From contig NZ_VFQF01000002.1 of NCBI RefSeq assembly GCF_006717145.1, positions 434,001-498,000 on the forward strand: a stretch of DNA of 64,000 bases, in the 5' to 3' direction. Made by a program: the position numbers and the translations under genes. Below are positions 41,238-59,075 of this stretch, in pieces (the stretch's first letter is position 1; every line of letters starts with the position of its first letter). The DNA comes from Humibacillus xanthopallidus (lineage in GTDB: Bacteria; Actinomycetota; Actinomycetes; Actinomycetales; Dermatophilaceae). The notes below the pieces were generated by a model. The model saw only the letters and a program-made list of their open reading frames with translations, ran no database searches and was not told the DNA's origin.

Positions 41238-41414
41238 CAATCGAAAGAGCAGTTCGTCGGCACCAAAGGGGGCGCCCTCAGCGGCGACCTCAGCAATCGA
41301 AAGAACGGTTCGACGGCACCCCCGGGATTCCCTCAGCAATCGAGAGAGCAGTTCGTCGCCCTTCCAGGCGACCGCGCGGGCGCGCTCGGCGGCGACGAAC
41401 TGCTCTTTCGATTG
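41238..41414. repeat. Repeat cluster A: three direct and one inverted copy of a 24-bp element
   Basis: The 24-base element CAATCGAAAGAGCAGTTCGT(CGGC) occurs at 41238, 41294 (diverged) and 41337, with an inverted copy at 41391-41414. The last two pair into a 24-bp stem with one mismatch around a 30-base loop. It lies between two convergent genes and could stop transcription from both sides. This subtype has AGTTCGTCG where clusters B and C have ACTCCGTCG. Confidence 0.85.
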
Positions 41415-41429
41415 GGATTCAGGTGCGGC

Positions 41430-42722
41430 TCAGGCAGAGGCGGGCAGGGGCTCCGGGAGGGCGGTCTGCCCCCGGGTGCCGCGCTCCTCGGCGACTGGGG
41501 CGGTTTCGACCTCGCCCCGACGCGACCGCAGGGCGGCGCGGAGGCGCCACGCGGCATACAGGGCCACGAGGCTGATGACGAGGTGCAGCCCGAGGAAGCC
41601 GCTCGAGAGACCCATGCCGAGCAGCGCGCCGGCGACGAGCGGCCCGAGAGCCGAGAACGTCGTCTGGATCGCGGTGAACGTGCCGAGCGTCGTGCCGACG
41701 AGACCCTTGGGGGCGAGGCTCGCGGTGAGCGGGTTGAGGACGGGCGCATACATCGTCTCGCCGACGGCGAAGATGCCGAAGGTCGTGACGAAGAGCGCCG
41801 AGGCGATCTCGGGAGTGAACTGGGCGGCGGAGAGCACGACCCACGCGAGCGTCCAGATGCCGCCGACGGCCATGAGCAGGGTGCCAGCGCCGCGCTTGGC
41901 GGTGAGGCGCACGACGACGACCTGCAGCGCGACGATGACGAGGCAGTTGACGGCCGCGGCGAGCCCGATGGCGGTCTCGTCGACGTTGAGCACGGTCAGC
42001 GCATATGCCGGGAGGCCGGACTCGAACTGAGCGTAGAAGCCGAGGGCGAGCGCCACGGCGACGACCGCGGTCCAGCGGAGCGCAGGCACCGCGAAGATGC
42101 GCCGGAGGGCCTCCATCGTGCCAAGGCGCGTCTCGGCCTCGCCCGCCGCGAGCTCGGGAGCGAGGTCGGTCGGGGCGCCGATGCCGGCGACGTGGATCAG
42201 CCCAGCGGAGACGGCGAAGCCGACGCCGGCGGCCAGGAACGCGAAGACCATGCCGTCGGCGCGGTCGAGGTCGACGAACAGACCCGCGACGAAGGCGCCG
42301 ACCGCCATGCCGATGGCCTCGCCGGTGAACTTGTAGGCGAAGACCTTGCGGCGGTCGTCACTCGGCGTCCACCGCAGCACGAGCACCGACGCGGCCGGGC
42401 CGGCCGCGGTCAGGCCGAGGCCGAAGACGAACATGCCGGTGAGGAAGGCAGGCGCCGTCGTGGCCCAGACGAGGCCGCCGACGCCGACGGCTGCGAGCAG
42501 CTTGGCGGCCACCGCGACGGTGACGGGGTTGAAGCGGTCGGACAGGCGGCCGGCGAAGGGAGCCGCGACGAGGGCGCCGACGGAGAAGAGGGTGCTGGCG
42601 AGGGCCGCGGTGAGGGCGCCCCACCCGCGGGTGTTCGCCGCGTACGCGTACTGGTACGGCAGCACCGTCCCCCAACCGAGCATGCCGATGGAGGAGGCGA
42701 GGATGAGCAGCTTGGTGCGCAC
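41430..42722 (-). CDS. Major facilitator superfamily transporter
   Basis: 430 residues, 12 hydrophobic segments. The MFS loop motif between helices 2 and 3 is GRLSDRFNPVTVA, and the matching loop in the second half is VRLTAKRGAGTLL. The overall pattern (helix 1 with MLGWGTVLPYQYAYA) is that of a drug/H+ antiporter-like or unknown exporter. It starts with GTG and has a hairpin in its 5' leader. It is divergent from a MarR regulator, with a perfect palindrome between them, so it is probably an efflux pump derepressed by the MarR ligand. No substrate can be named. Confidence 0.92.
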   Translation of the reverse strand: MRTKLLILASSIGMLGWGTVLPYQYAYAANTRGWGALTAALASTLFSVGALVAAPFAGRLSDRFNPVTVAVAAKLLAAVGVGGLVWATTAPAFLTGMFVFGLGLTAAGPAASVLVLRWTPSDDRRKVFAYKFTGEAIGMAVGAFVAGLFVDLDRADGMVFAFLAAGVGFAVSAGLIHVAGIGAPTDLAPELAAGEAETRLGTMEALRRIFAVPALRWTAVVAVALALGFYAQFESGLPAYALTVLNVDETAIGLAAAVNCLVIVALQVVVVRLTAKRGAGTLLMAVGGIWTLAWVVLSAAQFTPEIASALFVTTFGIFAVGETMYAPVLNPLTASLAPKGLVGTTLGTFTAIQTTFSALGPLVAGALLGMGLSSGFLGLHLVISLVALYAAWRLRAALRSRRGEVETAPVAEERGTRGQTALPEPLPASA

Positions 42723-47421: not shown

Positions 47422-47562
47422 CCGTCGGAATACTGCCTCGATTGGCCGCGGGTGTGCCGACGGAGTGCTCTTTCGATTGCCGCTCTCATGACGCGAGCCG
47501 ACGGAGTGCTCTTTGGATTGAGGGGCGCGGAGGCCTGGGCCGACGGAGTGCTCTTTCGATTG
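47422..47562 (-). repeat. Repeat cluster B: four spaced copies of the 24-bp element
   Basis: GCCGACGGAGTGCTCTTTCG(ATTG), the reverse complement of the element in cluster C, occurs at 47456, 47497 (one change) and 47539, spaced 41-42 bases, with an older copy at 47422. No inverted partner is present, so this cluster does not form the long hairpins. It lies between the IS and the bluB-cobT promoter; open frames running through it into bluB are an accident of the repeats. Confidence 0.8.
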
Positions 47563-54989: not shown

Positions 54990-55117
54990 GCTCGGGTCGC
55001 CGCCCTCGTCGAGAACTCAATGAACACAATCGTGACCCTAGTTCGTCGGGCCAGCACTCTCGTCCTATCAGCCCCGTCCGGTCAGTGAGTGCCCGGGCCC
55101 AGACCACGGAGGTCACC

Positions 55118-56533
55118 GTGAGTTCCACCGCCGACAGCGCCGTCGACGCCCAGCCGGGCCCGACTCCCAAGAAGGACCGCACGCACTATCTCTACGTCGC
55201 CGTCATCGTCGCGATGGTCGCCGGCATCCTCGTCGGGTGGCTCTTCCCCGAGTTCGGGAAGTCGCTCAAGCCGCTCGGCACAGGTTTCGTCAACCTCATC
55301 AAGATGATGATCACGCCGATCATCTTCTGCACCATCGTCCTCGGCATCGGCTCGGTCCGGAAGGCCGCCCAGGTCGGCAAGGTCGGCGGGCTCGCCCTCG
55401 CCTACTTCGTCACGATGTCGACGGTCGCCCTCGGCATCGGGCTCGTCGTCGGCAACCTCATCAAGCCGGGCGCCGGGCTCAACCTCACGCCCGAGATGGC
55501 GGCCGCGGGCTCCAAGGCCGCGACCGGCGAGGCCGAGACGACGGTCGACTTCCTCCTCGGGCTCATCCCCGACACGCTGGTGTCCGCCCTCACGGCCGGC
55601 TCCGTGCTCCAGGCGCTCTTCATCGCGCTGCTCGTCGGCTTCGCGCTGCAGAAGATGGGCAAGCAGGGCGAGCCGATCCTGCGCGGCATCAAGCACCTCG
55701 AGCGCCTCGTCTTCCGTCTCATGGCGATGATCATGTGGGCCGCCCCGATCGGCGCCTTCGGTGCGATGGCGGCCCTCGTCGGAGCCACCGGGCTCGGCTC
55801 GCTCAAGAGCCTCGGGCTGCTCATGGTCGCCTTCTACATCACCTGCGCGATCTTCGTCTTTGCCTTCCTCGGCACGATCCTCAAGCTCGTCACGGGCTTC
55901 AGCGTCTTCGCCCTGATGAAGTACCTCGCCCGCGAGTTCCTCCTCATCGTCTCGACGTCGTCGTCGGAGTCGGCGCTGCCGCGGCTCATCGCCAAGATGG
56001 AGCACCTCGGTGTCTCCCGCCCGGTCGTCGGCATCACCGTGCCGACCGGCTACTCGTTCAACCTCGACGGCACCGCGATCTACCTGACGATGGCGAGCCT
56101 CTTCATCGCCGAGGCCATGGACAAGCCCTTCACCATCGGGCAGCAGATCTCGCTGCTCGTCTTCATGATCATCGCCAGCAAGGGCGCGGCCGGGGTCAGC
56201 GGCGCCGGTCTCGCGACGCTCGCCGGTGGCCTGCAGTCGCACCGCCCCGACCTCGTGCCCGGCGTCGGCATCATCGTCGGCATCGACCGCCTCATGAGCG
56301 AGGCCCGCGCCCTGACGAACTTCGCCGGCAACGCCATCGCCACCGTGCTCATCGGCACCTGGGTCGGCGAGATCGACCGCGACAAGGCGGTCCGGGTCCT
56401 CGCCGGTGAGGACAAGTTCGACGAGGCGAGCATGCTCGACGAGGACGAGGTGGAGCCGTTCGCCGACGAAGCTGTCAGCGCGGCCCCGGCTCACGTCACT
56501 GAGCCGGTGCTCGTGGGCACGTCCCCTCGCTGA
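55118..56533 (+). CDS. dctA: C4-dicarboxylate/H+ or Na+ symporter (DctA, DAACS family)
   Basis: 471 residues. Family signatures: VNLIKMMITPIIFCTIVLGIGSV, the Ser-rich re-entrant loop FLLIVSTSSSESALPRLI, the GYSFNLDGTAIY motif and MIIASKGAAGVSGAGLATLAGGL. It imports succinate, fumarate or malate across the cytoplasmic membrane. GTG 55118 follows GGAGG by 6 bases; the longer frame from 55085 lacks such a site. The divergent sensor-regulator pair is its likely control. A clean terminator follows 44 bases after the stop. Confidence 0.95.
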   Translation: MSSTADSAVDAQPGPTPKKDRTHYLYVAVIVAMVAGILVGWLFPEFGKSLKPLGTGFVNLIKMMITPIIFCTIVLGIGSVRKAAQVGKVGGLALAYFVTMSTVALGIGLVVGNLIKPGAGLNLTPEMAAAGSKAATGEAETTVDFLLGLIPDTLVSALTAGSVLQALFIALLVGFALQKMGKQGEPILRGIKHLERLVFRLMAMIMWAAPIGAFGAMAALVGATGLGSLKSLGLLMVAFYITCAIFVFAFLGTILKLVTGFSVFALMKYLAREFLLIVSTSSSESALPRLIAKMEHLGVSRPVVGITVPTGYSFNLDGTAIYLTMASLFIAEAMDKPFTIGQQISLLVFMIIASKGAAGVSGAGLATLAGGLQSHRPDLVPGVGIIVGIDRLMSEARALTNFAGNAIATVLIGTWVGEIDRDKAVRVLAGEDKFDEASMLDEDEVEPFADEAVSAAPAHVTEPVLVGTSPR

Positions 56534-56556: not shown

Positions 56557-56577
56557 CCATCCAAAGAGCAGTCGTCA
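56557..56577 (+). repeat. Worn copy of the 24-bp repeat element
   Basis: CATCCAAAGAGCAGTCGTC resembles the cluster A subtype (CAATCGAAAGAGCAGTTCGTC) with a deletion and changes. Confidence 0.4.
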
Positions 56578-56605
56578 GGGCCACGCGGTTGCCGCGTGGC
56601 CCTTT
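56578..56605 (+). terminator. Intrinsic terminator of dctA
   Basis: GGGCCACGCGG and CCGCGTGGCCC form a perfect 11-bp stem around TTG, followed by TTT. Confidence 0.85.
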
Positions 56606-56632: not shown

Positions 56633-56708
56633 CCAATCGAAAGAGCACTCCGTCGCCCTTGGAGGGGGTGGGCCGTCTGGGAGACGACGAAGTGCTCTTT
56701 TCGATTGG
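56633..56708. repeat. Hairpin unit 1 of cluster C
   Basis: Arms of about 24 bp with one mismatch; TTTT near the outer right arm resembles a terminator. Confidence 0.8.
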
Positions 56709-56751
56709 CCGGCGCGTCCGCGCGTCGCCCGTCGCTAGCGCTCATCCCCTT

Positions 56752-56829
56752 CAATCGAGAGAGCACTCCGGCGGCCTTGGACCGGAGGGTGGGCCGAATG
56801 GGAGACGACGAAGTGCTCTTTTCGATTGG
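56752..56829. repeat. Hairpin unit 2 of cluster C
   Basis: Even-type unit with the inner stretch TTGGACCGGAGGGTGGGCCG; arms partly mismatched at CGGCGG. Confidence 0.75.
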
Positions 56830-56878
56830 CGGGCGCGTGTGCGCGCCGGCGGTCTCAACCCGTCGCGCTGTTCCCCCG

Positions 56879-56953
56879 CAATCGAAAGAGCACTCCGTCG
56901 CCCTTGGAGGGGGTGGGCCCTATGGGAGACGACGAAGTGCTCTTTTCGATTGG
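56879..56953. repeat. Hairpin unit 3 of cluster C
   Basis: Odd-type unit, nearly identical to unit 1 except GGGCCCTATGGG in the loop. Confidence 0.8.
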
Positions 56954-56996
56954 CCGGCACGTCCGCGCGTCGCCCGTCGCTAGCGCTCATCCCCTT

Positions 56997-57073
56997 CAAT
57001 CGAGAGAGCACTCCGTCGCCGTTGGACCGGAGGGTGGGCCGTATGGGAGACGACGAAGTGCTCTTTCGATTGG
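56997..57073. repeat. Hairpin unit 4 of cluster C
   Basis: Even-type unit, close copy of unit 2 with a shortened T-run. Confidence 0.8.
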
Positions 57074-57122
57074 CGGGCGCGTGTGCGCGCCGGCGGTCTC
57101 AACCCGTCGCGCTGGTCCCCCG

Positions 57123-57196
57123 CAATCGAAAGAGCACTCCGTCGGCCTTGGAGGGGGTGGGCCCTATGGGAGACGACGAAATGCCCTCTCGACTGG
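57123..57196. repeat. Hairpin unit 5 of cluster C, decayed right arm
   Basis: Right arm reads ATGCCCTCTCGACTGG, with several changes from GTGCTCTTTTCGATTGG. Confidence 0.75.
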
Positions 57197-57239
57197 CGGG
57201 CGCGTGTGCGCGCCGCCCGTCGCTAGCGCTCATCCCCTT

Positions 57240-57296
57240 CAATCGAAAGAGCACTCCGTCGGCCTTGGAGGGCCGACGGAGTGCTCTTTCGATCGG
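57240..57296 (-). repeat. Hairpin unit 6 of cluster C, compact
   Basis: The loop is cut to about 7 bases and both arms pair over about 25 bp with one mismatch. It abuts the permease stop, so it is the best candidate terminator for the sugar operon. Confidence 0.8.
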
Positions 57297-57297
57297 T

Positions 57298-58146
57298 CTA
57301 CTTGGAGAAGCCCGCCGTCAGGCCGCTGAGGAGCTGGCGACGACCGACGACGTAGAGCGCCAGGATGGGCAGGACGCTCATCAGCACGGCCGCGAGGACG
57401 GCGGGGACGTTGATGCCGTACTGCCCCTGGAAGGTCCACAGCGCGAGCGGCAGCACCCGGAGGTCCGGGCTCTGCGTGAGCACGAGGGGCAGCAGGAAGC
57501 CGTTCCAGATGCCGAGGGCGTTGTAGATCGTCACCGTCACGAGCGCCGGGCGGGTGAGTGGGAGGGCGAGCCGCCAGAGCGTCTGCCACTCGCTGCACCC
57601 GTCGAGACGCATCGACTCGAAGAGCTCGTTGGGCACGTCGCGGATGAAGTTGCTGAGCACCAGGACCGAGAGCGGGATGGCGAAGGCGATCGAGGGGAGG
57701 ATCAGCGCCAGCAGGGTGTCGTAGAGGTGCAGCCTGATGATGATGAGATAGACGGGGATGATCGTCGCCTGCAGCGGGATCGCCAGCCCCATGAGGAAGA
57801 GGGAGTTGGAGGACCGGACGAACCGGTTCGGCCGACTCCTGATGATGGCAAACGCCGCCATGAACGACACGAGCACGGCAGGAACCACTGCGCCCACCGT
57901 GACGATGACGCTGTTGACGAAGTAGCGGACGATGCCGGAGTCGATGACCAGCCGGTACGCGTCCAGTGTGGGCTGTTCTGGTGGGGCGAACGGGTTCGTC
58001 ACGAAGTACTCGGACTGGCTCTTGATGCTCGTGATGACGATCCAGTAGATCGGCAGGATCACGATGAAGAGCCAGACCCAGCTCAGGGCTCCGCCGACCC
58101 AGTTGGGGTTGCGGATGCGCTTGGTCGGCGCCGCGGTGTCGGCCAT
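57298..58146 (-). CDS. Sugar ABC permease, MalG type (second sugar operon)
   Basis: 282 residues with six transmembrane segments and the ATPase-docking loop LFESMRLDGCSEWQTLWRLALPLTRPAL. It begins ADTAAPTKRIRNPNWVGGALSWVWL. It follows its MalF-type partner by 2 bases. As in the first locus, no ATPase gene is present. The longer open frame upstream is a shadow of the partner gene. Its stop abuts the last hairpin of cluster C. Confidence 0.95.
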   Translation of the reverse strand: MADTAAPTKRIRNPNWVGGALSWVWLFIVILPIYWIVITSIKSQSEYFVTNPFAPPEQPTLDAYRLVIDSGIVRYFVNSVIVTVGAVVPAVLVSFMAAFAIIRSRPNRFVRSSNSLFLMGLAIPLQATIIPVYLIIIRLHLYDTLLALILPSIAFAIPLSVLVLSNFIRDVPNELFESMRLDGCSEWQTLWRLALPLTRPALVTVTIYNALGIWNGFLLPLVLTQSPDLRVLPLALWTFQGQYGINVPAVLAAVLMSVLPILALYVVGRRQLLSGLTAGFSK

Positions 58147-58148
58147 CG

Positions 58149-59075
58149 TCACGCCCCCTCGAGCTGGCTGGATGTCTTGTCGCCACCGCCGAGCCGTCGG
58201 AACAGCAGGGCCAGACCGAGCCCGACGAGGACGAGGATGACGCCGATGGCACTGGCCTGACCCATGAGGTTGGCCTGGAAGCCGGTCTTGTACATGTCGA
58301 GCGCGAGGACCCGGGTGGCATCCCCCGGACCACCGGCCGTGAGGACGTAGATGAGGTCGAAGAACGTCAGCGAGCCGACGACCATGAGGGTCGATGACGT
58401 GATGATGGTGTTCTTCAGCTGCGGCAGGGTGATCGAGAAGAACTGCCGGATCCGGCCGGCTCCGTCGATCTGGGCCGCCTCGTACATCGAGGTCGGGATC
58501 TGGCGCACGGCGCCCTGGTAGATGAGCGAGTGGAACGGGATGTACTGCCAGGACACGACGAAGACGACGACGCCGAGGGCGAGCGTCGGCTCCCCGAGCC
58601 AGTCCTGGGAGAGGAACGGCAGCCCGAGACCGGTACCGAGGCCGAAGTTGGGGTCGAGCAGGGCCTTGAAGGTGATGGCGATCGCCGCCGAGCTGAGCAG
58701 CAGCGGGATGAAGTAGAGCACCGCGAGGAACGCCCGGTACTTCTGGGCGCCCGCAAGGAACACGCCGAGCAGGATGCTCATGGGTGTCTGGAAAAGCCAG
58801 GAGAGGACAGCGACCTGGAACGTGACCCACATGGCGTGCGGCAGGCCGGGGTTGCTGAGCGTGGCCTTCCAGCTGGTGAGGCCGGAGGGGATGACCTGGC
58901 CGATGCCGTCCCACGTGGTGAAGCTCAGCAGGAGGACGCCGATGAGCGGGATGACGCCGAAGGCGATGAAGAACACCAGCGCCGGGACTGCCAGCCACCC
59001 GAGCGATCGGCCATGGATGTTCGTGGCGGTTCCGGACGAGGCGGGCTTGACGGTCCCGACGCTGGCGATGGTCAC
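58149..59075 (-). CDS. Sugar ABC permease, MalF type (second sugar operon)
   Basis: 308 residues, six transmembrane segments starting LGWLAVPALVFFIAFGVIPLIGVLLLSF (first), and the docking loop MYEAAQIDGAGRIRQFFSITLPQLKNT. The GTG start overlaps the binding-protein stop (GTGA), so all three subunits are translated together. This differs from the first locus, where a hairpin separates the binding-protein and permease genes. Confidence 0.95.
   Translation of the reverse strand: MTIASVGTVKPASSGTATNIHGRSLGWLAVPALVFFIAFGVIPLIGVLLLSFTTWDGIGQVIPSGLTSWKATLSNPGLPHAMWVTFQVAVLSWLFQTPMSILLGVFLAGAQKYRAFLAVLYFIPLLLSSAAIAITFKALLDPNFGLGTGLGLPFLSQDWLGEPTLALGVVVFVVSWQYIPFHSLIYQGAVRQIPTSMYEAAQIDGAGRIRQFFSITLPQLKNTIITSSTLMVVGSLTFFDLIYVLTAGGPGDATRVLALDMYKTGFQANLMGQASAIGVILVLVGLGLALLFRRLGGGDKTSSQLEGA

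Follow-up and report, generated by a model that had tools for sequence, protein, structure and literature searches.

REP, BIME and REPIN elements are short extragenic palindromic units that occur in over 100 copies, as inverted pairs or mosaics at the 3' ends of genes, and the gene for their enzyme is itself flanked by cognate repeats (PMC2817692, PMC3116915, PMC3733652). The CGTC-tagged REPs described by Di Nocera (2013), found mainly in Proteobacteria, carry their tag as an unpaired end and have no known dedicated transposase, leaving open which enzyme mobilises them and how REP-like repeats lacking a RAYT spread (PMC3733652). Here we describe an array at positions 56633 to 57296 of a 64,000-nucleotide stretch of the Humibacillus xanthopallidus genome (the window; contig NZ_VFQF01000002.1), which is a normal cluster of a dispersed repeat family functioning like REP/REPIN. 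We favour, at a probability of roughly 0.58, a reading in which the array represents a dispersed extragenic repeat clustered in BIME fashion, and a Vsr/DUF559-fold nuclease, encoded elsewhere between inverted units, is the cognate enzyme that drives the spread of the repeat.

Architecture of the array

The array lies between a plus-strand gene (55085 to 56533) and a convergent minus-strand gene (57298 to 58152) whose stop codon abuts it, both supported by ORF and gene call. Shortly past the stop codon of the plus-strand gene is a degenerate solitary half-unit core, CCATCCAAAGAGCA (56557 to 56570, plus strand), with 2 mismatches to the 14-mer core of the repeat. The interval before the array also holds a separate GC-rich hairpin unrelated to the repeat family (56580 to 56600, plus strand; 9-bp stem, 3-nt loop; RNA fold of −17.9 kcal/mol, z = −2.3), which receives no terminator score in a terminator scan.

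The initial annotation counted six hairpins, and all six are present, with left arms starting at 56634, 56752, 56879, 56997, 57123 and 57240 (spacings of 118, 127, 118, 126 and 117) and a right arm for every one, that of the fifth degenerate. Hairpin 1 (56634 to 56707; left unit 56634 to 56657, right arm 56685 to 56707; RNA fold z = −4.6) is followed by the first copy of spacer type A (56708 to 56751, D1 family), and hairpin 2 (56752 to 56828; left unit 56752 to 56775, right arm 56806 to 56828) by the first copy of spacer type B (56829 to 56878, D1/D2 families). The alternation continues with hairpin 3 (56879 to 56952; left unit 56879 to 56902, right arm 56930 to 56952), a second type A spacer with 95% identity to the first (56953 to 56996, D1), hairpin 4 (56997 to 57072; left unit 56997 to 57020, right arm 57051 to 57072) and a second type B spacer (57073 to 57122, a D2 copy at 97%). 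Hairpin 5 (57123 to 57195; left unit 57123 to 57146, degenerate right arm 57174 to 57195) is separated by a chimeric spacer from hairpin 6 (57240 to 57295; left unit 57240 to 57263, right arm 57272 to 57295), which has a short loop and an uninterrupted 24-bp stem (RNA fold z = −11.1).

The dimer period proposed for the array agrees with the D2 and D3 repeats, which give 245 and 244. The last spacer (57196 to 57239) is the crossover noted initially, starting as type B (D5, 90% to B) and ending as type A (D1, 91% to A). Growth of the array as a dimer, as originally suggested, is supported. The description of the element as a 24-bp inverted-repeat hairpin needs partial revision: the hairpins stand, but the basic unit is a 24-nt half-site (half a hairpin) that also forms same-orientation tandem arrays. 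We draw this from a cluster at 47456 to 47562 of the window, which holds same-orientation units only (<<<).

Dispersal and position of the repeat

The half-site has the consensus CAATCGAARGAGCASTYCGTCGSC, with sharp edges. Its 14-mer core is matched 16 times in the window at up to 2 mismatches, compared with 0.09 matches expected, and these matches confirm the copies noted at 41.2 kb (>>><; 41238 to 41414, between two convergent genes) and at 47.4 kb. The dispersal predicted from the window extends through the 5,390,744-base genome, where the core at up to 1 mismatch has 304 matches and a reversed control has 0. We compared this genome (G000) with that of a Humibacillus congener, KV-663 (G001), and with an Intrasporangium-like genome of 4,024,382 bases in one contig (G040). 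A sample of 41 stretches from the window's genome (733 kb, window included) contains 55 clusters of 1 to 9 units each in inverted (><), tandem and mixed orientations. A larger set of 144 clusters has a >< pair in 106. The commonest dispersed form is an inverted pair of about 78 bp with a conserved loop. By single linkage, 35 of 51 >< loops in the window's genome and 24 of 39 in the congener fall in one similarity group; with most loops alike, the 78-bp hairpin seems to be dispersed as one unit. A mini-hairpin within the single unit, which would match the imperfect palindrome that each REP unit forms, gained no covariation support; on inspection of the consensus only a 4-bp CGAA/TTCG self-complement is readable, and the variable positions do not compensate. 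No Rfam family matches at its gathering score, the only hit being sX7 at 24.8 bits against a cut-off of 55, in keeping with the earlier remark that no described family is known to have this sequence.

Other short repeats share this genome. GGCATAC/GTATGCC occurs 507 times in the 733 kb, mostly within genes, and 40 times in the window (for example at 41553 and 38571); G precedes GCATAC in 507 of 562 cases in these stretches, and the heptamer also recurs in spacers of the repeat arrays. At L097 (5350 to 6600), an unrelated gene lies between near-identical GTATGCCGTGAGCCCGCC hairpins, perhaps another repeat family containing GTATGCC.

Gene positions taken from an ad hoc codon-based gene caller place 224 of 225 sampled units outside genes, typically just past stop codons. 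The median distance from a cluster edge to the neighbouring gene 3' end is 19 nt in the window's genome, 14 nt in the congener and 4.5 nt in G040. In the window's genome only 3 of 53 placed clusters lie between divergent genes. Intergenic regions between convergent genes hold 31 of the 53, an enrichment (p = 2e-10) whose baseline is affected by the picking of stretches around repeats.

These positions would also suit dispersed copies kept for a function as RNA, whether as terminators in both directions or as stabilisers of mRNA 3' ends between convergent genes. That function would account for the closeness of cluster edges to gene 3' ends, the enrichment in convergent regions, the strong RNA hairpins and the agreement beyond chance of arm positions 14, 16 and 22 within hairpins. 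However, the positions follow equally well from avoidance of genes and promoters, and the arm agreement from both arms having moved together; moreover, 38 of the 144 clusters have no >< pair, the terminator scan scored no T-run terminator-like site in the array, and the element is absent from 184 of 188 family genomes. We therefore regard retention for an RNA function as rather unlikely.

Comparison of orthologous intergenic sites bears on how the clusters arose. Of 27 such sites with units in either Humibacillus genome, 22 are filled in both, with differing array lengths (8 versus 1 and 7 versus 2 units), whereas only 1 of 7 is shared with G040. This indicates that sites are old within the genus, that expansions are separate between genera and that arrays grow locally; local growth is visible as tandem duplication of half-units. 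A clean empty site with a target-site duplication was not found among the filled/empty pairs, which are too diverged to show duplication. At one orthologous site (L098/L116), a second repeat family, GTCGAGTGGCC, occupies the window's genome and the F1 family, to which the array belongs, occupies the congener.

A nuclease gene between inverted repeats

The initial annotation saw no REP-associated transposase in the window, and this extends to the whole genome, in which PF01797 is unmatched at E ≤ 0.001. Weaker PF01797 hits (E ≤ 1) in the window's genome and G040 were rejected as RAYT/Y1 candidates; they overlap M16 peptidase genes on the opposite strand. The Y1 (RAYT-like) transposase suggested as the enzyme is probably not involved: the genome has none, and the repeats instead bracket a Vsr-fold nuclease gene. 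When genes lying between clusters were listed, one family was common to the window's genome, the congener and G040, in the arrangement >>> gene <<<, which is also seen in a fourth genome (G041). The remaining genes found between clusters, LtrA, EamA, CorA and urocanase among them, are ordinary neighbours. The bracketed gene encodes about 334 amino acids, with an AbiEi-like N-terminal part and a Vsr/DUF559-fold nuclease. It is intact in the congener and in G040, where it lies at another genomic place; in the window's own genome a frameshift interrupts it.

Paralogues and homologues of this gene are flanked by different inverted repeats. An inverted exact match of at least 13 nt joins the 500-bp flanks of 19 of 27 homologues class-wide, compared with 29 of 340 ordinary genes from eight of these genomes (Fisher p = 5e-13) and 49 of 812 mismatched flanks; in a second homologue set, from the family, only 11 of 22 have such a match (p = 2e-6). 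With 14-nt inverted flanks as the measure, 7 of 437 ordinary genes in the window's genome, the congener and G040 qualify, one of them a paralogue of the nuclease gene. Where the pattern is clear, the gene has a complete hairpin on either side, and the downstream hairpin begins at or inside the stop codon. The association between repeat and nuclease is well supported. At several f27 loci (L181, L187, L194), the TGA stop of the nuclease gene falls inside its own downstream repeat, TGATCATGGAG.

Cognate repeat families across genomes

A survey of 188 family genomes places the F1 repeat in the window's genome, the congener and G040; G041 gives a single weak hit. A 22-mer pattern is counted 239 times in the congener and 71 times in G040, and the core 14-mer 191 times in the congener. 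These four genomes are exactly those whose nuclease reaches 64% identity or more to the KV-663 protein; the one that follows in identity, that of G043 (53%), has a diverged repeat, ATCGAGAGTGCAG, in its flanks. G041 carries the variant TTCGCGAC around its own nuclease gene and 95 times genome-wide, with 0 copies in Humibacillus, and G040 has 51 copies within 2 mismatches of that variant. What the sequences themselves show is the repeat and where it lies, its confinement to genomes that have the cognate nuclease clade, its bracketing of the gene and the predicted fold.

Further families show the same pairing. The family GTCGAGTGGCCAC occurs 30 times in 669 kb of the window's genome and 0 times in the congener and G040 samples, and the matching paralogue (L167) is found only in the window's genome. 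Arrays of a GTCGAGTGGCCA unit cognate to this paralogue lie at L073, L079, L089, L097 and L098 of the same genome. GTCGAGTGCCCA is found in both Humibacillus genomes, which both carry its paralogue. The distant family TTGATCATGGAGAA has 5 to 159 copies in each of nine f27 genomes, the f27 genomes tested all being nuclease carriers, and 0 copies in the window's genome, G092 and G302. In G092 (stretches L221 to L225), 100 kb contain 15 copies of GGGCGAAGGGGG, which is also present in the flanks of that genome's nuclease gene and has 0 copies in seven other genomes. Flanking repeats show no clear dispersal in random 100-kb samples of G149, G509, G548 and G502, which suggests that flanking repeats are common and expansion sporadic; motifs tested for G177, G179 and G173 have 0 to 1 copies there. 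Some genomes thus show clear genome-wide expansion of a cognate repeat, and samples of others show none. Co-divergence of repeat and nuclease is only modest (Mantel r = 0.26, p = 0.035).

The several nucleases with flanking repeats but no visible genome-wide expansion would fit a different history, in which the repeats around the gene are operators or tolerated insertions, an unrelated and perhaps lost transposase did the dispersal, and the nuclease is a passenger. AbiEi-like domains are DNA-binding autoregulators, which also favours operators. Against this stand the inverted repeats on both sides of the gene, including at the stop codon, the match of variants between gene flanks and genome, the separate families of the paralogues, and a genome without a Y1 transposase, so that we find a passenger role improbable.

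Features of the nuclease

The protein has features of the Vsr/EDxHD nuclease superfamily in its predicted fold and conserved putative catalytic acids. Across 40 homologues, D154, S195, E198, R202, D231, G245 and R261 are invariant and E242, Q254 and D258 nearly so. Profile searches hit 3hrl (E = 2.4e-6) and give a weak match to the mobile intron protein 3r3p, and Pfam at a threshold of 0.001 assigns MTES_1575 to 25 members, DUF559 to 19 and AbiEi_4 to one. The AF2 model has a mean pLDDT of 95.2. Foldseek E-values for the whole chain are weak, but at the level of the nuclease domain there are matches to I-Bth0305I (probability 1.00, TMt 0.76) and to Vsr (0.99).

PADLOC returns AbiEi-type hits, with E down to 1.7e-7 for a distant member. 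Together with the restriction-type fold, these hits could point to defence or self-marking, with chromosomal repeats protecting from, or titrating, a nuclease that attacks foreign DNA. Such a role is very unlikely given copy numbers that run from 5 to over 300 and are near zero in some genome samples; a non-systematic look at the unit turned up neither a partner toxin nor a methylase. Still less credible is a phased binding array for a nucleoid protein, since the raw half-site spacings (near 31, 42, 53, 63 and 74 bp) are periodic near the helical repeat of 10.5 to 10.8 bp (p < 0.005), but collapsing loops of common descent leaves p at only 0.02 to 0.03 at 10.5 bp, the periodicity is not seen in G040, and helical phasing was dropped as a strong claim.

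Upstream motif and cassette boundaries

In 29 of 32 core homologues, whose start codons were chosen by hand from the conserved N-terminus, the 150 nt before the start contain TGTGGA or TCCACA, compared with 50 of 935 and 13 of 340 ordinary genes. The usual place is −46 to −49 for TGTGGA and −57 to −59 for TCCACA, in the context GCCTGTGGATAAC. A second set with automatic starts has the hexamer in 15 of 22 cases, at the fixed place in 9 of 22. The motif resembles a DnaA box.

At a site shared by G040 and G041, the two sequences are about 90% identical as far as the outermost repeat; beyond it, and on through the nuclease gene, the figure falls to about 65%. Similar contrasts between flank and gene identity recur in other genome pairs. 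This drop would fit replacement of a repeat-bounded cassette, although a rapidly evolving gene next to a conserved neighbour would give the same picture, and it appears compatible with a homing endonuclease element, which cuts an allele lacking it and is copied into that allele. Genomes of different genera often have the nuclease gene at a shared site, which suggests that the cassette itself rarely moves.

Proposed mechanism and implications

From these patterns we infer binding, cutting, copying or movement, and a selective explanation of position. The nuclease would recognise the half-site or the hairpin and cut DNA there, and repair of the break would copy hairpins to new places, occasionally carrying the nuclease cassette along, as in homing. 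New copies might persist chiefly right after stop codons, the places where they would do least harm, and once placed, unequal recombination of half-units and dimers could build arrays such as that at 56633 to 57296. A broader version, which we offer tentatively and at a little short of even odds, is that these are widespread actinobacterial mobile units in which a Vsr-fold nuclease, without a transposase, spreads its own hairpin family, possibly timed to replication through the DnaA-box-like site about 48 nt before the start, as a second, unrelated counterpart of what RAYT is for REPs.

A search of the open-access PMC literature on DUF559 with AbiEi, REPIN in actinobacteria and Intrasporangium repeats returned nothing relevant, and an earlier description outside it is possible; relative to the open papers searched, what is new is that the repeat is associated with this nuclease family. 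How such repeats spread can now be put to a bench test, with a candidate enzyme whose fold is predicted confidently, whose catalytic residues are conserved and whose cognate repeat is found in many genomes. If the proposal is true, actinobacterial nuclease genes annotated only as DUF559 or AbiEi-like drive intergenic repeat families, and the repeats are ready-made sets of sites for reading nuclease specificity.

Comparison with known systems

The likeness to REP/BIME suggested at the outset holds for organisation, dispersal and high copy number and fails for the Y1/RAYT enzyme and the GTAG tag. Like REP/REPIN, the Humibacillus repeat is extragenic, lies downstream of genes in high copy and occurs as inverted pairs that seem to disperse as a unit. 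Unlike REP/REPIN, it has 24-bp arms and a conserved loop of about 30 nt, its 24-nt consensus lacks the GTAG tetranucleotide of the REP/REPIN unit end, and it resides in a genome with no Y1/HUH enzyme, its associated enzyme being a predicted Vsr-fold nuclease. With two tested defining features missing (RAYT and GTAG), the family is not REP/REPIN by definition. Whereas the tag of CGTC REPs is an unpaired end, CGTC in the Humibacillus unit is at positions 18 to 21, inside the paired arm.

As in MITEs, the inverted pair resembles the ends of a longer gene-bearing element minus its gene, but here the longer form encodes a nuclease and no transposase, and no target-site duplication was seen among filled/empty pairs too diverged to show one. 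Mitochondrial GC clusters and double-hairpin elements, which are organellar, are small mobile palindromes thought to have spread with nuclease genes. The EDxHD/Vsr-type homing endonuclease I-Bth0305I has, according to the model, the same nuclease fold; the actinobacterial nuclease differs in that it is not seen in an intron or intein and is bracketed instead by repeats that are also found alone in high copy.
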